DNA from: Tigriopus japonicus
Lineage: Eukaryota; Arthropoda; Copepoda; Harpacticoida; Harpacticidae
Direction: 5' to 3'
Length of the DNA: 64,000 nucleotides
Assembly (NCBI GenBank): GCA_010645155.1
Contig: CM021313.1
Span: 672,139-736,138 of the forward strand
Under the pieces are notes generated by a model, which was not told the origin of the DNA, did no database searches, and saw only the letters and a program-made list of their open reading frames with translations. Below, one piece after another: positions 9,113 through 20,642 of this stretch. Numbering within the stretch: position 1 is the first letter of the stretch; each line of letters starts with the position of its first letter. The position numbers and the translations under genes are program-made.

Positions 9113-11955
9113 TCTAAAAATCTGATTTTGTAAATAATAATTTTGAAATTATATTTTTTATGTCAATCTACAATCCACACAACCACTGTTCTGAGAGTTT
9201 TGAACTGTGGGAGATCAATCATATCGATTTTTGTACACTCAAGGGATATTCGTGCGGGCAATGTGATGTGTATTATGTGACCCAATAGCTCATATGCTGA
9301 CGTCAATACTTCAAACACGACCAAAAAGAAACCCGGTAAATATTCAATTTGGGGGTAAAAACAAAAATAGGCCCTTTTTACTGGTCAAGGGATCAGGTGA
9401 TCAAAATTTGCTGTTTGGACGAATAGACGCATGTAAAATGAACAGTGGAAAATTTATTTTCTGTAAGACCACAAACATGCAAGACTTAGATGGCGTTACA
9501 AGTTTGGACTTCTGGACCCCAGCTTTTGATCAGGCTAGTCAATTATCAATTTCTACCAATCTGACTTTGTGAGAGGGTGGGAGAAGAGTCAGAAGACGGA
9601 CATCCAACCAAGAATTGGGGCTTAGAAACGAGCAATTCAAAAGTGCATGATGACTTGGACTCGCGTGAAGTTTTTGGCTTTGGTTAACGCTTCAATTCTT
9701 GACATTTACATGGTTGAAACCTAGGACGAACACTAAATTTAATTTCTTGCATTAAGGCCAGTCAAACATTCTGTCGATAGTTATGCAGTGCTTGAAAATC
9801 CACATGATCGAACTTTACACCATTGGTCTTGGACGACCCTTTTCTAGTGAAAACCGAACCGAAACCGAACCGGAACCGAAAATTTCGGCCGAAAGAGGGC
9901 TCAACAGAAACCGAAACATAAAACATACTTTTCAGGCTGACTTCAAAATCAAACAAGTACAGGATTCACTTTAAAATTCAAATTTAAGTTGCTCAAATAT
10001 TTGATGTTGGGGAGTCGCAAATTTCAAAATCGGAAAACTTAGGTTTTGGAGGTTTTTGGACCACGAGATCTTTGATTTTGTTGTCAAACGCCATCCTTTA
10101 TAGTGCCTGTCTGCATTCCGTTTCGGTAGGCATAACCGAAACAGAAACCGAACCGAAACGGTCGTAAACCGCACATAATTTTAGCAAAAACCGCTTTCTG
10201 TTCATCACTCTCGTTTTCACCCTTACTGGTTAGATTACAAACCCTCCCACTTAATTTCTTCCAAATGCACTGAAATATATTCCAGTCAAACCATTGTGAA
10301 ATCACGATTTTTACATAGCTATTTCTAAAAGACTTTTCCATTTGACCTGTCTTTTTTTACATCGTAATATGATTATGCATATACAATTTCTTTTTAATGC
10401 GCCATGACATGACCGAGAGTCTCAATAAACACTATTATTATTACTTAAAACGTTATTAATTTCCAGTCCACGCTGGTCAAAAATTGTTTGTTTTCAAGGA
10501 CCAGATTTTCGAAAAATGTTATATTTAAGACCAATGGCATGGATTTTGTACACAGACGTTAATTGTAGAGATGCTTTTCATGATCAATTTGTTTAAATAG
10601 AGTCGCATTATTTGTAGCGCTTGTAAAAAATCCGGAACAACAAAATTAAAAAAGACATGTTTTTCAGGCTTAAAGTTCGACAATTTCTGTGTTTCTCGGG
10701 GCCCTTCAGAATGTCCCACCACAAGGCTCAATAATACACTTTTAGCATCTCATTACAGCGAATCTATCGGTCTGGAAAGTTCTTTCAAATTATTTCTCAG
10801 GCTCTGATGGATGAAACCTAAAAGGAGGTTGAACTTGCTTTCGCTACTCTAAGCGCCAAAATTGTGTAAAAAGTGAAAAACGACAAAAAAAGGTTTCCTT
10901 CATTACTCCTTTACGAATAAAATTTACAAGTTTTTTAGCTTTTGCCAGAGCAGAATTATCAGGTTTTTAAAGTGTCGTTGGATTTAAAAGCTACCCTGTA
11001 AAAGCTTGAATGTGCCCACGTGACGTACGACCAAAAATATATAATTGATGGCATTATGATTCACAATCTATGTTCAATAGCAAAATACCCAGATATATTT
11101 GGTTTTGTTTTTGATGATAGAACATCACATCATATACGTGATGTATTGTCTATAATGGAACATATCTTGTACAAGTCACAGTCCAAAAGTGGCCCGAAAC
11201 GTTGTCAATCTGAATCAGGAATGCAAAAGTACCCGGATGAAGAAATAATTCATCTCGTTAATGCCGAAATGGGCTACCTGGTTACATGCATCAATTAAGA
11301 TTAACGTGCCTTACATTGCTCCAATGATGGTAGTTTTCCAAGTTTAACATTTGAACTGCAACACGAATCGATACTAAAAACGCGCGTTGTCATGAGAAAA
11401 AAAAATAGATTAATTTTTTCACTGTTACATCCGTTAAAGAAGCATTAATCGCTCAAAATTATAGTGAAGAGTGAGAGAAAGCTTCCAGGGAGGTCCATAT
11501 CAAGACCTTAGGACGAACACTTGTGAAAGTCTGTCGACAGAAAAGGCCTAGCTTTGCACGAGGGCTCTTTCATCTTTGTCCCTTCTTAGTCAAGTCCAAA
11601 AGAAGAGTTTGAAAGTGATTCAAGAGGAGCACCAAAATCCACGTGATTTGGCACGCTGTATTTCTTTGATTTCTTTAGTAAACTAAATGAGTGTCACAAT
11701 ATTTCATACTTGTAATATTTTGTGTCAGAACTTCGCGGTTGCGAATCAGGGCTGACTCAGTGAATATTTTATGATAGGCTCCAAAGCCACCGATTATACA
11801 TGTATCAGAATGGTTTGGATATGGATCGGACAACATTATCTCTATGAGACAAGTTCTAAGATAAAACAATTATCAAGAAGTATGGCACATCATTTTTTAT
11901 TATTTTGTTAGCTCTGTAGAGAGACTAAATCAAGCTTAAAAAATAATGATGTCAA
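9113..11955. other. gene-poor AT-rich region
   Basis: No gene can be supported. Two patches (about 9848-9885 and 10130-10165) are rich in the short unit ACCGAA/AACCGAAACC in the same orientation, about 290 bp apart, and resemble decayed satellite or retroelement sequence. Open frames at 9294-9572 and 11020-11298 have no recognisable domains. Confidence 0.4.
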
Positions 11956-12055
11956 NNNNNNNNNNNNNNNNNNNNNNNNNNNNNNNNNNNNNNNNNNNNN
12001 NNNNNNNNNNNNNNNNNNNNNNNNNNNNNNNNNNNNNNNNNNNNNNNNNNNNNNN
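11956..12055. other. assembly gap (100 N)
   Basis: Exactly 100 N, the conventional size for a gap of unknown length. It directly abuts a 32-bp tandem array, so the array probably caused the break and its true length is unknown. Confidence 0.98.
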
Positions 12056-12183
12056 AGACAGACCTAAAATGAGCTAGAAGGCTAGAAAGACAGACCTAAA
12101 ATGAGCTAGAAGGCTAGAAAGACAGACCTAAAATGAGCTAGAAGGCTAGAAAGACAGACCTAAAATGAGCTAGAAGGCTAGAA
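12056..12183 (+). repeat. 32-bp minisatellite, four identical units
   Basis: Four perfect head-to-tail copies of a 32-bp unit that begins AGACAGACCTAAAATGAGCT and ends AGAAGGCTAGAA. The array runs straight out of the gap on its left, so more units are expected. Confidence 0.95.
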
Positions 12184-12529
12184 TTCTAGAAAGGCCCTAA
12201 TCAACATTGTGTGGCCTCAAAAAGTAACATCAGACAATTACAGCAATTAGCAATCAGCAACTGTGTCTTCACAGGATTTGCTTGGGAGTGCTCCAACTGA
12301 TCCAAAACGTGAACAAAACTTCCAAGTCTAAGATCACATTGGAAATAGGTTGCAAACATAATATCGGACATTTGCTCTCTCTTTTTTGATCTTGTGTACA
12401 TGTAGACACTGAACACTACCCTATAGTGGAACCAATTAATCTCTTGCGCATTCTCTTTCAATTCAAGTGCTTAAGCCAGTCTTTTAGTCGGTTTATGTCC
12501 ACCTTTAAAGGCCTAACCCGAATGCCTCA

Positions 12530-12712
12530 ACATGCTAGAGGTCTAGAATATGAGAACTACAACAAGCTAGAGGTCTAGAATAAGAAAACCACAATAAGCT
12601 AGAGGTCTTGAAGAACAACAACAAACAAAAGGTCTAGAATAGGAGAACAACAACAGGCTAGAGGTCTAGAATAAGAATGTTACAACAAGCTAGATGAAAT
12701 AATTGTATATTC
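12530..12712 (+). repeat. degenerate 32-bp minisatellite, block 2
   Basis: About five diverged units built on CAACAAGCTAGAGGTCTAGA followed by an AAGA-rich spacer. The AGCTAGAGGTCTAGA core resembles AGCTAGAAGGCTAGAA in the perfect array at 12056-12183, so they probably share an origin. Confidence 0.8.
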
Positions 12713-13627
12713 TAGACCTGTTTATTGAGCAAAGGGTTTTGCATTATCTTTGAAGTTACACTAAAGTCATAGTTGGACAAGAAGGTTCTTACCTTCAGCC
12801 TCGCAGCACCATCACCCTTGAACAGGAGGAGAAAGACTGGGGATGGGAATTAGTCTGTAAAACGCAAACTGGAGAGAGGTCACGGTGTTCTGAATGGCTT
12901 TTTAGGTTTGAATCAAAATACCCGAAGACATCAAGGCACTTTTTGGACTCACAATTCAATGGGGAACAACTTTACTTTTTATCATATTATATGAGTTTAT
13001 GCCCAGGGAAAAAGTTGTATACCTAAAAACCTATTAATTGTTAGGAAAAAACAAATTCCCAAAAATTTCATATAGCTTTTCAATATTGCAACCATGAATG
13101 AAATTTCTTGAATTTGGAGCTTTTGTTAAAATAGCTCAAAATAATAAAAATTATCACTTAAAAGGCACTTTAAATACATTTTGCGATAAAAAAAAATTTT
13201 GCACTATCAAAGACACTCAAAGTTGGGTAATACCTAAAAGCTTTGAAAAATTCGGTTAATGTTTCAATTTTCGATTTTAGTCCATTTCGAACATGGTCCT
13301 TCTAGAAATCGTAAATTTGAATATGAATCTGTTAGACATATTTATTTGTAATTTTAGCAGAACTCACATCATAGCGTTCTCTAAATAGTTATGAAATATG
13401 CTTTCCAAAAATCTTGATTAAGTGCATTTTAAGCAAGGATGGCTCAAGCCAGGATTACTTTCAAAATACACACTTGGTCCGATTAGTACAATGGAAATTC
13501 AACGGAACAATATGTTTGTTGCAAAAACCTCACATTTTAGTACAGTGATCGGACCTGGTGTGTATTTTTGAAATCCGTCCTGAAGAACAGTGGTTCCTGA
13601 TTTTAAGTGATATTTTATATCATTACA
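12713..13627. other. unique sequence between minisatellite blocks
   Basis: Roughly 900 bp of AT-rich sequence without a supported gene. It separates two blocks of the same minisatellite family, as if inserted into or grown between them. Confidence 0.4.
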
Positions 13628-13925
13628 CTAGGGGTCTAGAATAAGAGAACTGCAACAAGCTAGAGGTCTAGCGGAAGAAAACTACAACAAGCTAGAGGTC
13701 TAAAAGAAGAGAACTACAACAAGCTGGAGGTCTAGAGGAAGAGAACTACAACAAGCCAGAGGTCAAGAAGAAAGAAACTAAAAGGAGCTAGAGGTCTAGA
13801 TGAAGAGAACTACAACAAGCCAGACGTCTTGAAGAAGAGAATTACAACAAGCCATAGGTCTAGAGGAAGAGAACTACAACAAGCTAGAGGTCTAGAAGAA
13901 GAGAACTACGACAAGCCATAGGTCT
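13628..13925 (+). repeat. degenerate 32-bp minisatellite, block 3
   Basis: About nine units of the pattern GGTCTAGAAGAAGAGAACTA then CAACAAGCTAGA, period 32 bp, each with a few substitutions. The unit is the same as in 12530-12712. A still more diverged tail (AGAGGTCTA-type words) can be followed to about 14640. Confidence 0.85.
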
Positions 13926-14075
13926 GGAGCCAAATACCTACAGTTATTGACTGAGCTAGAAGCCTAACTGTAAGCTAAGGCATGAAGGACTGAATTTCTG
14001 GAGTGGGAGACTAACAATGCGAATTATGAGTTCCTGCAATTGGGTTCTTCTGCAAGCGAGATCTGCCTTGTATTC

Positions 14076-14296
14076 AGTAGACTACGTATTTCAAATTTCA
14101 GCTCAATCGAATGCCGGAGTGAAAAGTTATGCCTTCTCAAACTTATGTGCTGAAGAAAGCATTGAATGAAATCATTCGCCTTTTTAAGGGCAAGTTCATT
14201 CATTCTTGGTGGCATTTGCACTGAACTTTCAGTGAACATAACTTTTGACTCCGACGTTTGATTGAGCTAAAAAGTGAAATACGTATTCTACTCATC
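14076..14296. repeat. foldback repeat of about 220 bp
   Basis: The left arm (about 14076-14133) contains TACGTATTTC, CAGCTCAATCGAATG and AAAAGTTATG. The right arm (about 14237-14296) carries the inverse of the same order. Half-copies with TACGTATTTCAG and AGCTCAATCGAAC recur near 55090-55130 and 57277-57312, so the unit is dispersed. It could be a second foldback family or the ends of a decayed DNA transposon. Confidence 0.65.
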
Positions 14297-15474
14297 ATAT
14301 GGAAGATATAATTTGCAGAAGAACATAATTGAATTGTTCTTACTGGAGATCATGATTCCTTTCGTTAGCCTCCCAGTCCAAATTATTCAGTGGTTCTTGG
14401 CTAAGGTCTTGAATTGCCAATATGATTTTATTTTGAGAAATAGAATTTAAGAAAATAGAATAGTTGGAATGAAAAAGTCTGAAATATAAGAAGTCTAAAA
14501 CTAGAGCTTTAGAGGTCTACATGTAGAGTATATAAAGAACAAAAAACGAAGATCTGGGGTTCTAAGAGTTATAGAACAAGAAATCTTGAATTGCTTAGGA
14601 CCAAGAGGTCTAAAAACGACTAGAAATATAAAACTAGGTGTAGGGGAACCAAATCCTAAGGCATTTTGAATGCTTGGTAAATTTTGAATTAGTTATAGAA
14701 ATTGAGATCTTTGATTAGAGATCACATTCTGATATTCTGTATTCAGATGATTAAGAATCATTGCCTTAGACTTATGATTTAGAAGGCTACAACTAGAGTT
14801 CCCCTTGCGGAGCTTGAGACTTGAAGAAACGCCGGCTGGGCGAGGCTCAACCCTCCGATCCTAGCATCAACAATCAAAAAAAATACTGCATTGACACTAA
14901 AACAGAGGATAAGGAGTGATGGAATATTATCATGAAGTTCGATGCCTTTGACATTTTTTTTATTTTTCCTTGTAATGATGGCCCTTTTTTATAGACCCCA
15001 AGGATAATCTACTCCTAGATGGAGACCTTATTGAAAAATGAGACTCTGTCAGTGACGTGACACCAGGAGCGCTCTCTAGCGGCCTCCCTTTATCGTGTTG
15101 GTCGTCGTTGTTGTTGTCGTCGTCGTCCTCCTCCTCCTCCTCTCTCTCGAGATTGAATGTGGGCAGATCAGTGGGTGTGGCTGTTGGGCAGACGGCAGTA
15201 CGAGAGGAGGAGGAGTAGGAGTAGGAGGAGTCCAACTGGGCAGACAGTCAGTCACTCACCCAAGCTGGATTTACGCGCCATCATGGACAATTAAGTTTGG
15301 GACGATATCTTTCGGTGGTTTCGTGGTTTCCTGAACCAGAATAGGCCCTTCAATTCAATTCCTAGAGTTCCTCGACAAAGAATGTTTGAGACAAACGGAA
15401 TTATTGTTCTTGTTCTTGTCTGATTCCCAGAAGATAGCTCCAGCTTTCGTTGCCCTAACTTCTCACCAAGAACC
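14297..15474. other. upstream region of the Gag/Sp gene
   Basis: No gene can be supported. Diverged AGAGGTCTA words reach about 14640. A copy of the GC-rich dispersed repeat lies at about 14830-14875. A GTC/GTT then TCC microsatellite occupies about 15098-15150. A CTTGTCTGATTCCCAG string ending at 15430 could be a splice acceptor for a 5' untranslated exon. Confidence 0.45.
14830..14875 (+). repeat. dispersed GC-rich repeat, copy 3
   Basis: GCCGGCTGGGCGAGGCTCAA is followed by CCCTCCGATCCTAGCATCAA. It is the same family as the copies at 283-350 and 9012-9112. Confidence 0.6.
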
Positions 15475-16785
15475 ATGAATGGTTCGGAATGCAACGGCTT
15501 AGGCAATGGGAAACCCGGGAAATCTCTCGATGAAGCTTGGCTAAGCTCTTTCCGACAGTTCATGCCCGAATTTGACCCAGAGTCTGGCATCGAAGGAGGG
15601 AGCAACGACCTCTACCGCACTTGGACTTGCTATGTTCAAACCTTCAATGATCTCTGTCAATTGCACGCTATTGAAGGGGGATCGACGAAGACATCCTTGT
15701 TTTTACTCTTGTGCGGGTTTAAGATACGCGAAAAACTGGTCGAGTACGGTTTTGAGAGCGGAAACACCGACTTTGAGCTCCTTGTGAATTTTCTGAGCTC
15801 TATGTTTGCCGATCGGCAAGCCATTCATCTCAATCGATATCAGTTTTTCTATGAACACGGTCACCCGCTCGCAGGAGAAAACTCACAGCAATGGGTACGT
15901 CGATTGTGGAACTTGAGTAAGTCGTGCAATTTTGATCAGTTCTCACCTCAAGATGCAGTTTCACTGCTGCTCATGCGACACGAACCCAAAATCAAGACCC
16001 AAGTGGCGGCTAATCCAACCCTAACGGCTATGGATGTGATCCTACAACTAGACAAGACTTTTGCTCAAGAGTTTGAAGAGCACTTGCCCGGAGAAGGGGA
16101 GGAAGATGAAACCAATACGCCCATTAACGTCGATCTTCAATGGGGGGACGAAGTGGCTGGGGATCAAAACGACGACGACAATAGCTCGTCCCAGGTCGTA
16201 AACTCTACCGATTCGATTAAACTCGAGCTCGATGACGTTTCCAAAGAATCGGTGGGTGCCTTTATGGGGCATCCCGAAGAGAGCTCAGACGGATCGATGC
16301 ACATGTTGACCCCTGATCTGAGCAAGCTCAAACCAGTGGGTGGTCCCAAAGCGTCCGGTGCGTCCTCGTCGCCTGCGGGCAAGTCTGTGTGTTCATGTCC
16401 GAATTGCGAAAACGCTCCTCCAGGTGTACGTCCAGCCCGTCATAAGTGTCATTTTCAAGGCTGTGGAAAAGAGTACACGAAAACTAGCCATTTGAAGTCG
16501 CATTTAAACTCTCATAGTGACGTGCTCCCGTTTGGGTGCACCCATTGTGACAAACGATTTTACCGGTCCGATCAGTTAACTCGACACGTCCGGATTCACA
16601 CGGGAGAGAAACGGTATTGGTGTCAAGTGTGTCATAAAGCATTTTCTCGATCCGATCATTTGACCAAGCACGCTAAAACTCACAAAGATCAAGACGTGTC
16701 GGCCATTATCGGCCAAGCTCAGAACAATCCCAATGATCCCAATGGCCAACCTGGGGGACAGATGATGGGCCATCTCGTTCAATAA
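15475..16785 (+). CDS. Gag capsid-like domain fused to Sp-type zinc fingers
   Basis: Intronless 436-aa frame beginning at a well-placed ATG (AACCATGAATGG). The C-terminus is a nuclear DNA-binding domain of the Sp/KLF kind: a Btd-box-like CSCPNC at 306-311 and three C2H2 fingers with Cys/His at 325/330/343/347, 355/358/371/375 and 383/386/399/403. Recognition helices are KTSHLKSH, RSDQLTRH and RSDHLTKH. Finger 2 has C-X2-C where Sp/KLF proteins have C-X4-C. Residues 30-200 instead look like a Ty3/gypsy-type Gag capsid: W50-x2-Y53-x3-F57, KTSLFLLLCGFKIREKL, an ELLVNFLSSMF helix, GENSQQWVRRLWNLSKSCNF (134-153) and a final PTLTAMDVILQLDKTFAQ helix. An acidic Ser-rich linker joins them. No CCHC knuckle, protease, RT or LTR is seen, so this looks like a host gene. 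It probably acts as a transcription factor whose capsid part oligomerises. The Gag assignment is by eye. Confidence 0.8.
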   Translation: MNGSECNGLGNGKPGKSLDEAWLSSFRQFMPEFDPESGIEGGSNDLYRTWTCYVQTFNDLCQLHAIEGGSTKTSLFLLLCGFKIREKLVEYGFESGNTDFELLVNFLSSMFADRQAIHLNRYQFFYEHGHPLAGENSQQWVRRLWNLSKSCNFDQFSPQDAVSLLLMRHEPKIKTQVAANPTLTAMDVILQLDKTFAQEFEEHLPGEGEEDETNTPINVDLQWGDEVAGDQNDDDNSSSQVVNSTDSIKLELDDVSKESVGAFMGHPEESSDGSMHMLTPDLSKLKPVGGPKASGASSSPAGKSVCSCPNCENAPPGVRPARHKCHFQGCGKEYTKTSHLKSHLNSHSDVLPFGCTHCDKRFYRSDQLTRHVRIHTGEKRYWCQVCHKAFSRSDHLTKHAKTHKDQDVSAIIGQAQNNPNDPNGQPGGQMMGHLVQ

Positions 16786-17014
16786 GGTTGGAAATTTCTC
16801 AACCATTTCTCAACATTATTATATTGTGAACCAAAAGCTAACTTTCACATATGTACATCAAAATGAGCGATACAAAAGTACACGTACATCCAGAGCTCTC
16901 TTCTTACCAATGTCAAAACGCATTTCATCACATAAGCTAACAAAGTATGAAATACAAAATGTACTAAACTGAAATTATCCTCCCCGTTTTATCCAATGAA
17001 TCCTCCAGGTTTCT
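16786..17014. other. convergent 3' region
   Basis: Only 229 bp separate the stop codons of the Gag/Sp gene (+) and the JmjC gene (-), so their transcripts probably overlap at the 3' ends. Confidence 0.5.
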
Positions 17015-18057
17015 TCACGTGTACTCATTGGTGATCGTTATCGACAGCCCATCTAGAACACTAGTGGAATGATACCACCAGTTTGTGTTGACTACGATCA
17101 CATCTCCCGGCTCCAAAATGGTCTCCATGGGTCCAGGACATATCCGAGCGCATTCAGGAGGTGGTTTCAGTTGCCATAGCTTTCGTCCTCTAATCTACGA
17201 CAATGGGTTATCAATAGAAAACGTTAGCCAAAAGGTCAAAATGTGAGAGTTTTAGAACTCACCTGGGCTTGCCAAGAAGCGTGAACCACGTTATCAATGT
17301 GAAAAGGAGCTCCAAATCCTGGCGTTCCCATGAAGAACCAATCCCGTCGACCGGATTCCGATTCCTTGGGGATGAACCACGGTGTCTCGTAATAATCTCG
17401 GAGAATGGCTCGCGCTTGTGGATCACAATCAGCCCATCCGATATACCAAGGTGTATAAGTGCCTTTCATTTCATATCGACCTCGGGGCATGCTGAATACC
17501 TCATCCATGCTGGAGAACTCGCTAAAATCCCAGGAGAAGAACTGGCAATCCGGTTCGCTGTTATATAAAACTGGACTGTTCAACCGGTCATAGATTTCCA
17601 TGAAGAATTTGAAGTCAAACGCCGTCATGGCCTTCCAATCTTGCGTGACATTCCGCACTATTAAGGGTTGACCCGTAAATGCGTACACATTTTCGAATAT
17701 ATCCGGATCCATCTCATCATTGGGAATCTCATGGATGTGCGTGACATTCTCGCACATCTGGCAATTGACCAAAGGCCGACAGTAATCGAATTGACCGTTC
17801 TTCTTGTATAACTTGACGCAATCGCGATCTGAGTCGTATTCATATCCGCGGAAAATGACTTCCCCGTGCTTCAGGGCAGAATCCCAGAGCTCCCAACGCA
17901 AGATTGCCAATCCAATCACCATTCCCAACAGAAGAGCACTTTTTACCGAGATTTCGAATCGAATGAGAACGAAACTAGAGCCCTCTTGATTGGTGGGCTT
18001 TTGCTCGTTTGAAGCGAGCGACGCACGAGTATCAAGTCCACCATTCTTGACGGACAT
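17015..18057 (-). CDS. membrane-anchored JmjC-domain oxygenase
   Basis: Two exons, 18057-17263 and 17194-17015, give 324 aa. A GTGAGT donor and an in-phase acceptor surround a 68-bp intron. The protein has one hydrophobic segment near residues 39-54 (SALLLGMVIGLAILRW), suggesting a type II membrane anchor, then a JmjC-type cupin. The expected Fe(II) ligands are present: H253 and D255 in PFHIDNVVH, and H307 in WWYHST. GRRDWFFMGTPGFGAPFHID and IRGRKLWQLKPPPECARI resemble the JMJD6/JMJD8-like hydroxylase group. It is likely a 2-oxoglutarate-dependent oxygenase acting in the secretory lumen. Substrate and exact orthologue are not known. The second exon encodes the last iron ligand, so both exons are needed for activity. 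Confidence 0.82.
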
Positions 18058-18411
18058 TTCGGCACTGCTGAGTTAGTATTGAGCCTTGGAGACTTTCCGA
18101 AAGAATTGGGACATATTTTCTCTTGTCTTACTATGACCATGTTCCAAAGAGTGGAGAAGAAGACAACTAGCGATACTTTGGTGCGCATAATCTCACCATG
18201 ACCAGGCGTCTTTTTCACAGCCTTTAACGAAGCTATCGGTCACAAACAGGTCTACGTAGAGAGGGGTCTTAAAAAAAGAAGGCCAATAAGAGTGGGTAGG
18301 CCTCTATTCCCTCTACCCCGTTCTCGAGTGATGATGATTGTTTTCTTCAATATTTGTATTTATCAATCATTATTGAATGGTATGATGTAGCTAATATGGA
18401 AATCATGTCAG

Positions 18412-19221
18412 TTATTGTAGAGCACATACTGCGGTTTTGACTGTTCCACCGGAATTGGCAATGATTCGGTCCTGCCTTGGGATCATCACTTCCGCTTTCA
18501 CCACTTGATGCTGTTGCTCTTGATCTGCTCTCGATAATCTGCAAAGAGATTCATCATTGGAAGCTATAAATTGACACATTTAGGTGTTCACCTTACTTGA
18601 TGCCCATGAGTTCGGCTGCAATCTTTTGAAAGCAAAGATTAACACCTTCTCCAGATTTAGCTGAAACAGCGTACGTGAGAAGCGAGTTCTCCTGTGCAAA
18701 ACGGTGATGCCGTTCGGACTTCACCGATCGTTTGTGCTCCAAATCGATTTTATTCGCTATCAAAGCAAAAGAACAAGGAGATGGTCGATCCTCCGAGGAT
18801 CCGACGCAACGTTTGCATTGCTTGAGCCATCCTTCCAGATTCTCGAAGCTATTGAAATTGCTCACATCGTACACCAGAAGAACAGCGTGTGCACCAAAGA
18901 TGTATTTGTCGATCATGGTTCCTTCCATGGCGGCTCCACCAATGTCCCAAATCTGCCAGGGCCAAAATTGATAGTCATTAATCGTTTCAGGTGCAAAGTG
19001 AAAGATGTAAATTATGCTTGAATTACTTTTAACGCTGCAGGCTTGTTACCCGGGAGCATGATTCGTTTGAGATAGAATTCCACTCCCACGGTGGGTGTGT
19101 ACATCTTGCTGAAACTTTCCTGTGAGTATTTGTTAGCTAGGGCAGTTTTGCCCACCGTCGGATCACCAACTAAAACGAGTTTGAACTGACGTTCCACAGC
19201 CTCGTCCTCAGAGTCAGACAT
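18412..19221 (-). CDS. Rab28: Rab28 small GTPase
   Basis: Three exons (19221-19027, 18952-18597, 18538-18412) give 225 aa, close to vertebrate Rab28. The start MSDSEDEA and the order of motifs match that family: GDPTVGKT (P-loop), TPTVGVEFYLKRI, WDIGG (G3), NKIDLEH (G4) and SAK (G5). The C-terminus is CALQ, a CaaX box like that of Rab28 (other Rabs end in CC or CXC), so farnesylation is expected. Rab28 acts in ciliary and endosomal traffic. The residue after WDIGG is Ala, where Rab28 has the catalytic Gln; this is reported as a finding. Donors are GTAATT and GTAAGG. Retaining intron 2 would stop the protein right after GIK. Confidence 0.92.
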
Positions 19222-19562
19222 TCTGTGAAAAGAATTGCAATATAAAAATCAACTATTAGTAGAAGCAGGCAGGATAGATAAAATAATGGCTTGATAATAT
19301 TGAAACTGCAAGAATGGAAGGTCTACTATTAACAAGAAAAATGAAAATACCTCTATTAAGCAACCCAATACAAAAATGAAAACCTCCTCCGGATTTGATG
19401 TTTTATCATAAGATAGAATTTATTGGCAAAGAGCTAACAAAAGATAAAGATGTGATGTGAAAGTATGGAATATACTCTGTATAAAAGTTGAAAAGATGTG
19501 TCGAGAAAGATATGGGGGTAAATGCACTTGTGGTGAAACGCTCTTGCTAATCGATTGGTAGT

Positions 19563-20642
19563 TCATTCCAAAGCTAGAAACACGGGTTTCTGGCGCTTGA
19601 ACTCGTCAAAGCGTTGTTTAGCGTAGTCGAAATAGTCAAAGTCGATGGAAGAAAACTTGGCTTGCACCAACGACCACATGGCCCACGTGAAGTTGGCCAA
19701 GAGAGAGAATTTGTTCACCAAAACATAGGTCCGATGAACGAGCTCGTCGGAAATCTCAGGAGTCGCATGATAAGCCTGGAGATAACGTCGGATCCAATCC
19801 TTTTGCTCGGGCTCTTTGGGGTAGAGTCGCTCGTAATCGAGATGATCGCCAACTCCGACATACTCCGTGAAATGATTGGCAATATCATAGGCCTGATAGT
19901 TGTTGTCCCCGTACTCGTAGTCAATAAAACGCACTTGAGATTGGTCCTCGCTCAAGATGACGTTTCCCAAGAGGAGATCATTGTGGCAGAACACCACGGG
20001 CGAATCACAGTCACCGAGAAGAGCCTCGAACTCGTCGATTTCGCGCTTAAGCTCGCTCCGGGAGAACAAACCGAGTTCTTGGAATCGACGAGCCTTCTTC
20101 GGATCGTCATATTGCTCTGGACACAGTCTCCAGAAGGTGCGCATCAGCCTCCACAGGCAAGGTTGCCGCTTCAAGGGTTCTTGGTGGTCGTTAAAATGAT
20201 GCATTTTGGCCATCATCTCTAAAACGAGTTGATTAATTTTGGGCTGAACAATGAGGTCGGGTGTGAGCATGGTTCCAGTGATGAACGTATAGGCTACACC
20301 ATTGGCAAACGTGCCGTAGAGTCGAGCGCCGCATCCGGCATCGTAGAAGGCCAACATATTGCGGATTTCCGCTTGACGATCTATCATGGTCTCGGTGTGA
20401 TTCCCGTAGCAACGCACCATAACCATGTCCCGCTTTTGGGAAACTCGGTAGACTCCCACCAAGACATTGGTGATCCCTTCGGAGAACTTCTTGATACGAA
20501 GCTCATCGAGAGGCCATTCGGGTCGAATTTGAGCGACCAAGGCCTTGGCGTCGGTGTGTAAAGACGTTTCCGATTGGAAATCTACCACAAAATCGGGAAA
20601 TTGCGCAATGTCCCGACCACTCAAGTCCACTTTCGGACTCAT
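19563..20642 (-). CDS. ethanolamine kinase (eas/ETNK type)
   Basis: Phosphorylates ethanolamine in the first step of the CDP-ethanolamine route to phosphatidylethanolamine; cytosolic. The frame from the ATG at 20642 gives 359 aa. The kinase hallmarks are HNDLLLGN at about 220-227 (Brenner motif) and FIDYEYG near 239-245, with DIANHFTEYVG downstream. These are typical of the choline/ethanolamine kinase family. The N-terminal part (KKFSEGITNVLVGVY, VMVRCYGNHTE) matches ethanolamine rather than choline kinases. The frame stays open 18 codons upstream to a GTG. A CCTCAGTCAG acceptor-like string just beyond hints at an additional upstream exon, so the true N-terminus is uncertain. Confidence 0.9.
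   Translation of the reverse strand: MSPKVDLSGRDIAQFPDFVVDFQSETSLHTDAKALVAQIRPEWPLDELRIKKFSEGITNVLVGVYRVSQKRDMVMVRCYGNHTETMIDRQAEIRNMLAFYDAGCGARLYGTFANGVAYTFITGTMLTPDLIVQPKINQLVLEMMAKMHHFNDHQEPLKRQPCLWRLMRTFWRLCPEQYDDPKKARRFQELGLFSRSELKREIDEFEALLGDCDSPVVFCHNDLLLGNVILSEDQSQVRFIDYEYGDNNYQAYDIANHFTEYVGVGDHLDYERLYPKEPEQKDWIRRYLQAYHATPEISDELVHRTYVLVNKFSLLANFTWAMWSLVQAKFSSIDFDYFDYAKQRFDEFKRQKPVFLALE

Follow-up and report, generated by a model that had tools for sequence, protein, structure and literature searches.

Can a retrotransposon capsid have been joined to a zinc-finger transcription factor outside the vertebrates? The question is raised by an open reading frame (ORF) at positions 15475..16785, forward strand, of a 64,000-nucleotide stretch of Tigriopus japonicus DNA (hereafter the window; contig CM021313.1 of assembly GCA_010645155.1, positions 672,139 to 736,138). 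The one precedent we know of, in which zinc-finger genes took up a Gag capsid, is the SCAN domain of vertebrates. An earlier note on the window proposed that residues 30-200 of the encoded protein are a Ty3/gypsy Gag capsid, that a Btd-box-like motif and three Sp/KLF-type C2H2 fingers follow, and that the gene is an invertebrate analogue of the SCAN-ZNF genes of vertebrates. The results presented here favour that reading: the N-terminal half is homologous to Gag capsids, the gene is present in a single copy, the fusion is conserved in a second species, and the fingers are Sp-like. We conclude that the gene is an apparently independent invertebrate counterpart of SCAN-ZNF genes, and we put at roughly two in three the probability that it encodes a domesticated transcription factor whose capsid domain, by self-association, brings Sp-type fingers together on G-rich DNA.

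Homology of the N-terminal half to Ty3/gypsy Gag capsids

We compared the T. japonicus protein (the query) with profiles built from the genome's own Ty3/gypsy Gags, in which the query was never included. The loci used comprised 25 of 30 in clade A, 19 of 20 in clade B, 7 of 15 in clade C (the others had stops or were short or fragmentary) and 22 of 23 in the E lineage (L113 was dropped for masked bases). The E lineage, which is abundant and diverse, was reached through RNase H matches and one Gag search; among 18 regions upstream of RNase H matches, L090, excluded from the last profiles, gave a usable Gag, and L093, L095 and L096 led to L102-L104. Decoys for the last profiles were 86 pieces of window ORFs, the gene's own two pieces having been removed from 88.

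With the broad profile ABE2, the query scored 20.4 bits in hmmsearch, a score reached by none of 2000 shuffled sequences (maximum 10.5), none of 1000 ten-residue block shuffles (maximum 14.4) and none of the 86 window ORF pieces (maximum 1.1), and hhalign aligned ABE2 with residues 31-168 over 130 columns at 93% probability (P 3.4e-7). Profile-profile comparison of A4, which consists of 27 of the same 66 Gags and is a subset rather than an independent sample, with the query and its T. californicus homologue gave a probability of 88.6% and P 2.6e-6 over 141 columns (residues 31-176). The same comparison run in reverse gave P 1.7e-7, with none of 200 shuffles and none of 150 block shuffles as high (score 49.6, against a maximum of 29.1 in the 350 shuffled versions). 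The hhalign P values are uncalibrated here, and the number of shuffles fixes the empirical floor; the best P multiplied by all trials is still below 1e-4. These three P values, with clean shuffle controls, lend statistical support to the assignment of residues 30-200 to a Gag capsid.

The signal grows with profile breadth, and narrow profiles are weak or null. Hidden Markov model (HMM) scores were -1.6 (A), 3.0 (B), -2.0 (C), 4.6 (AB) and 2.6 bits (ABC), with 344, 18, 468, 6 and 11 of 2000 shuffles as high; profiles AC and BC, scored without shuffles for the better of the query and T. californicus, gave -0.5 and 3.4 bits. Scores with E, EF, ABE, ABCE and the profile of all were -0.8, -1.8, 9.4, 8.2 and 9.4 bits, with 222, 638, 0, 2 and 0 of 2000 shuffles as high, and E2 and ABCE2 gave 15.6 and 18.2 bits, a level attained by none of 2000 shuffles in either case. 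The T. californicus piece, scored with 13 profiles, equalled the query (A) or was lower (for example, 16.6 bits with ABE2). In local hhalign alignments the shuffles as high numbered 115 (A), 46 (B), 23 (AB) and 3 (ABC) of 400, and 226 (E), 0 (ABE), 0 (ABCE) and 2 (all) of 300; for E2, ABE2 and ABCE2 they numbered none of 150, with none of 150 block shuffles. Global alignments were not significant (250, 64, 61 and 350 of 400 for A, B, AB and ABC). Genuine clade C Gags, one of which (L010) has a nucleocapsid knuckle and an RNase H match in one long frame, themselves get no further than -0.3 to 4.0 bits against the AB profile, where the query has 4.6 bits, and the early failures of narrow profiles thus carry little weight. 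Hydrophobic residues of the query occupy 29 of 37 Gag-core columns and 39 of 136 others, a bias that the alignment itself favours.

Profile A4 also reaches solved capsids. Against the PDB at E <= 10, A4 matched 26 sequences, and the 7 at E <= 0.01 were all dArc1, dArc2 or PNMA2 capsids, matched mostly over the C-lobe (best E values 4.9e-10 for dArc2 and 3.9e-7 for PNMA2); Arc followed at 0.099, and MOAP1 and retroviral capsids stood amid unrelated chains at E > 0.1. Thirteen of the 27 A4 members matched the Pfam family PNMA, and 5 of 27 matched Retrotrans_gag, at E <= 1. Because A4 matches both the query and the solved capsids, it supports a connection that runs from the query through Gag to those capsids, the last step being made mostly through the C-lobe. 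When clades A and B were thinned and a tree was built on 188 columns, the query and T. californicus together occupied a long branch that joined these two clades (support 0.93); given sequences so distant, we read from this only that the query lineage appears separate and old.

The alignments place a capsid-like N-lobe at 15601..15807 on the forward strand (residues ~43-111; 53/69 identical to T. californicus) and a capsid-like C-lobe, which includes GENSQQWVRRLWNLSKSCNF, at 15808..16086 on the same strand (residues ~112-204; 80/93 identical). In the C-lobe, the alignments extend to residue 168 with the broad profile or to residue 176 with A4, leaving the last helix of the lobe uncovered. We conclude that the N-terminal domain is very probably a Ty3/gypsy Gag capsid by origin and that, judged from these alignments, it is a diverged capsid retaining both lobes.

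Standard searches and structure prediction

Several results weigh against a capsid origin. A Pfam search at E <= 10 returned 11 families, all zinc-finger or chance matches, with no Gag and no SCAN among them (HMMER filters limit this search). A PDB sequence search with the protein found no capsid, and a two-sequence profile found there 3 unrelated chains (E 0.79-1.2). Genome scans with Retrotrans_gag found 35 places at E <= 10 and, in another scan, 5 places, with the gene absent from both sets. AlphaFold confidence, as predicted local distance difference test score, was poor with a single sequence (47.1) and with two sequences (55.0); the single-sequence model has 3 + 5 helices rather than 4 + 5; and structure comparisons gave no significant match and ranked unrelated folds above capsids. 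Nine of the 15 HMM profiles scored the query below 5 bits. Relatives were found only in Tigriopus, by a search method that needs shared exact words: the N-terminal region matched 2 of 315 candidates from the protein database, both Tigriopus proteins, and the two-sequence N-terminal profile at E <= 10 matched the same two among 3190. The capsid part (151/184 residues identical to T. californicus, ungapped; 82%) is just slightly more conserved than the acidic, Ser-rich linker that follows it (16087..16374, forward strand; residues 205-300, with 21 acidic, 5 basic and 15 Ser residues in 96; 72/96 columns identical, 75%), and Gag-core columns are conserved between the two species at 33 of 37 positions versus 109 of 136 for other columns, a difference that is not significant (Fisher p 0.24). 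These two comparisons argue no more than modestly for constraint on the fold; the capsid fold is plausibly kept by selection.

The Ty3_capsid family found nothing in the genome and nothing in its controls, and viral contigs gave 10 pattern matches and no relative. A Gag of this genome, run against the protein database, matched 2 proteins, neither of which entered the profiles. The few capsids in the structure-comparison lists covered the C-lobe where ranges were given (model positions 100-188, residues 117-205), and the absence of Ty3 capsid and SCAN from these lists excludes nothing. Both AlphaFold models, at low confidence, are mainly helical across residues 20-204. The two-sequence model has, after a leading helix, N-lobe helices at residues 44-63, 69-82, 84-90 and 98-110 and C-lobe helices at residues 114-128, 137-150, 158-168, 170-179 and 185-192 with 194-202, which amounts to 4 + 5 helices if the two abutting last pieces count as one. 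The helix count described for the N-terminal and C-terminal domains of the Ty3 capsid protein (CA) is 4 + 5 (PMC6525542).

Of the profile and structure searches by which the earlier note proposed to check the N-terminal half, Pfam, the PDB and AlphaFold alone would have seemed to contradict the homology; the match to the broad Gag profile settled the matter in its favour. The blindness of standard searches has a parallel in a survey of mammalian domesticated capsids, which describes CA profiles as having missed SCAN proteins (PMC11011659). Separately, ZAD, KRAB and BTB were considered as the N-terminal domain and were rejected, none having a Pfam match.

A single-copy gene conserved between two Tigriopus species

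The frame is as the earlier note had it: it runs exactly from 15475 to 16785 on the forward strand, uninterrupted from ATG to TAA, and encodes 436 residues, and the motifs that had been listed lie where they were placed. The ATG at 15475 stands in a favourable sequence context. The closest named protein in a protein database search is T. californicus TCAL_00643 (437 residues), which is 83% identical and has the full architecture, so the fusion sought by the earlier note in other copepods is present in one. The presence of this architecture in another species strongly indicates that the gene is real and that its halves belong together; that the annotated T. californicus protein spans both halves argues for one transcript across them. 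Identity is complete in the finger region (83/83, residues 322-404). Protein P0001 is 99% identical to the window protein, with 3 differences in 436 residues, at residues 5, 9 and 11, all in the first eleven.

In the genome searched (194.85 Mb, 158 contigs), the full-length protein matches over its entire length only its own locus; other matches are confined to the zinc-finger end or begin a short way ahead of it (earliest at residue 255), and residues 1-284 match only their own place at E <= 1. The gene thus has the properties of a domesticated host gene: it is single copy in this genome, intact, and conserved between two species. Nor does its setting resemble an element, as the earlier note had observed in finding no nucleocapsid knuckle, protease, reverse transcriptase or long terminal repeat (LTR). 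Of three Cys patterns tested in the protein, including the CCHC knuckle, the sole match was CSCPNC at residues 306-311; no retroelement Pfam domain was found at E <= 0.001 in the 19 ORFs scanned besides the gene (from a window list of 42 ORFs of at least 130 residues); and no LTR-like repeat pair was found within 11500-20500. With no pol and no LTR found in these searches, the reading as a live element was rejected.

Sp-like zinc fingers and a Btd-like box

The consensus of the Btd box is CxCPxC. In the gene, CSCPNC (16390..16407, forward strand; residues 306-311; sequence pattern) stands ahead of three C2H2 fingers (16447..16683, forward strand; residues 325-347, 355-375 and 383-403), as in the Sp family, and this box points to the Sp class. 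Identity across the finger region is 61% with L002, 60% with L003, 57% with L007, 55% with L004 and 52-54% with six KLF-like genes of this genome, whose Sp and KLF labels (L002 and L003 as Sp) were assigned in this analysis. The finger string used for L006, a distant KLF-like row, extends one letter beyond its stop. In a finger tree, which held no named Sp sequences, the gene fell nearest to the genome's Sp-type genes with a support of only 0.73. Finger 2 has C-x2-C spacing, versus C-x4-C in the 10 other aligned genes. The description of the C-terminal part as Btd-box-like with three Sp/KLF-type fingers holds for the box, the three fingers and the nearest genes, but the spacing of finger 2 departs from Sp.

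On our reading of the finger code, the finger 2 helix RSDQLTR presumably specifies GAG where Sp1 has GCG. The helices RSDQLTR and RSDHLTK suggest a predicted G-rich target with GAG in place of the Sp1 GCG, and the predicted site is 5'-GGGGAGGGG-3' or close to it. Sp factors are described as binding GC boxes (PMC3087555).

Two observations concern other Sp/KLF-like genes of the genome. L004 (G000:C3:11946582-11949935; ORF 565-1932, 455 codons) encodes an N-terminal BTB domain (Pfam, 31.1 bits), a Btd-like CKCPNC and three C2H2 fingers, and is a second gene of this genome that joins an oligomerising domain to Sp-like fingers. L080, L081 and L082 (G000:C9:6252746-6306386) are three KLF-type genes in ~55 kb, possibly a tandem cluster.

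Comparison with known systems

As in the SCAN-ZNF genes, a host gene carries C2H2 fingers with, on their N-terminal side, a helical domain derived from a Ty3/gypsy capsid. The Tigriopus gene differs in having three Sp-type fingers with a Btd box, a crustacean host and a single copy, and in keeping both lobes, whereas SCAN is one capsid lobe. SCAN is described as derived from a Gmr1-like Gag capsid, namely from its C-terminal portion, and as multimerising through domain swapping (PMC4592553), and CA has been termed a 'double-SCAN domain fold' (PMC6525542). Membership of the SCAN family was rejected, Pfam SCAN being unmatched at E <= 10 and the alignment spanning N-lobe and C-lobe. The proposal that the gene carries the same kind of module as SCAN stands as regards the Gag capsid but not as regards the single SCAN lobe.

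Like the Sp family, the gene has a Btd box ahead of three C2H2 fingers at the C-terminal end, but it is without an Sp-type N-terminus (by eye), lacks TGE(K/R)P in the linker between fingers 1 and 2, and forms a long branch. Arc, dArc1/dArc2 and PNMA are likewise host genes with a two-lobed Ty3/gypsy capsid, and the genome's Gag profile finds dArc and PNMA2. We know of no C2H2 fingers in Arc, dArc1/dArc2 or PNMA, and of no C2H2 DNA-binding part in Gagr of Drosophila. Gagr, likened here by description with the sequences uncompared, is an arthropod domesticated gypsy-group gag, and the source that presents it as the Drosophila gag case describes domestication of LTR elements in invertebrates as poorly understood (PMC7231272). 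Titles and abstract openings of open-licence papers yielded no invertebrate Gag-C2H2 fusion.

Proposed function and alternatives

We infer the following order of events, DNA target and regulatory role, with self-association by analogy. An ancestral Ty3/gypsy capsid, comprising both CA lobes and without nucleocapsid, protease or reverse transcriptase, would have been joined to the fingers of a duplicated Sp-family gene, and this fusion of capsid with Btd box and three fingers would predate the split of T. californicus and T. japonicus. The protein would most likely enter the nucleus, where its fingers would bind short G-rich sites. The capsid domain would probably self-associate as dimers or larger rings, the two retained lobes permitting assemblies larger than SCAN dimers. 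As with SCAN and BTB in other C2H2 proteins, this self-association would cluster partner proteins or the sites to which the fingers are bound. A bolder form of this proposal, which we think unlikely, is that the transcription factor is still a working capsid, in which the lobes would build rings or lattices and the fingers would replace the nucleocapsid. The product would be a multivalent shell able to bind DNA, which would draw many G-rich sites together or package nucleic acid. If true, capsid-driven transcription factors would have arisen separately in invertebrates, with both lobes as compared with SCAN's one.

Less probable again is a restriction factor, whose capsid part would co-assemble with or cap Ty3/gypsy capsids, as Fv1 acts on murine leukaemia virus, while its fingers hold element DNA or an element promoter. 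The genome has many Gag-bearing elements with long open frames, so a target exists, and the literature on SCAN speculates on a similar role for it in zinc-finger proteins (PMC4592553). However, the capsid branch is distant from the sampled Gag lineages, and it is for that reason less likely that the protein co-assembles with the elements now resident, and the conservation of the capsid part (151/184) gives no visible sign of an arms race.

We give slightly less credence still to a particle former, in which the capsid would assemble, the C2H2 fingers would substitute for the nucleocapsid, and RNA or DNA would be packaged as by Arc and dArc. Both lobes are present, the fingers lie C-terminal to CA at the place of the nucleocapsid, and the solved structures closest to the Gag profile are those of dArc1, dArc2 and PNMA2, of which PNMA2 forms capsids. 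Capsid formation is also described for dArc (PMC11011659). Nevertheless, Sp-type fingers and a Btd box are DNA-binding modules, the 83/83 identity of finger residues between species suits fixed DNA targets, and a 96-residue acidic linker separates the capsid and finger parts.

It is improbable that the N-terminal half resembles Gag by convergence and is in fact an all-helical orphan domain of unrelated origin. Such a domain would account for the lack of Pfam, PDB-sequence and confident structural matches and for narrow profiles that cannot be separated from shuffles (A and B in local mode, 115/400 and 46/400; global mode not significant), but broad profiles do separate the query, with motifs collinear across both lobes and clean block-shuffle controls, and the genuine clade C Gags fare as poorly with the AB profile. 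A recent chance insertion or gene-model artefact without function can be dismissed as highly improbable, given the full-length architecture of T. californicus at 83% identity with 83/83 finger residues the same.

Other features of the locus

Beyond the fingers lies a C-terminal tail (16684..16782, forward strand; residues 404-436), in which residues 405-436 are identical to T. californicus at 28 of 32 positions. Upstream, a candidate splice acceptor AG behind a pyrimidine-rich run lies at 15429..15430 on the forward strand; an exon using it would begin at 15431. In keeping with a host gene, choline kinase, a Ras-family GTPase, ESF1 and an ABC transporter are encoded nearby. Upstream of the gene, window positions 12067-13988 hold a minisatellite-like array with a 32-base unit in many imperfect copies, and positions 14037-14331 hold an inverted repeat (114-nucleotide arms, 75% complementary, spaced by 67 nucleotides), perhaps the relic of a small DNA transposon. 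Tail to tail with the gene, the frame at 17239-18072 on the reverse strand appears by eye to be part of a JmjC or cupin-type dioxygenase; a Pfam scan of this piece by itself gave no match at E <= 0.001.

Implications

Genes of this kind can escape standard family and fold searches and yet be found with profiles made from the retroelements of the host itself. Because Tigriopus species are amenable to laboratory breeding, the idea developed here is testable. Transposases are a recurrent source of DNA-binding domains for transcription factors; a second independent capture of a capsid, this time by a different class of fingers in a crustacean and with neither lobe lost, would make capsids a repeatable source of their oligomerising domains.
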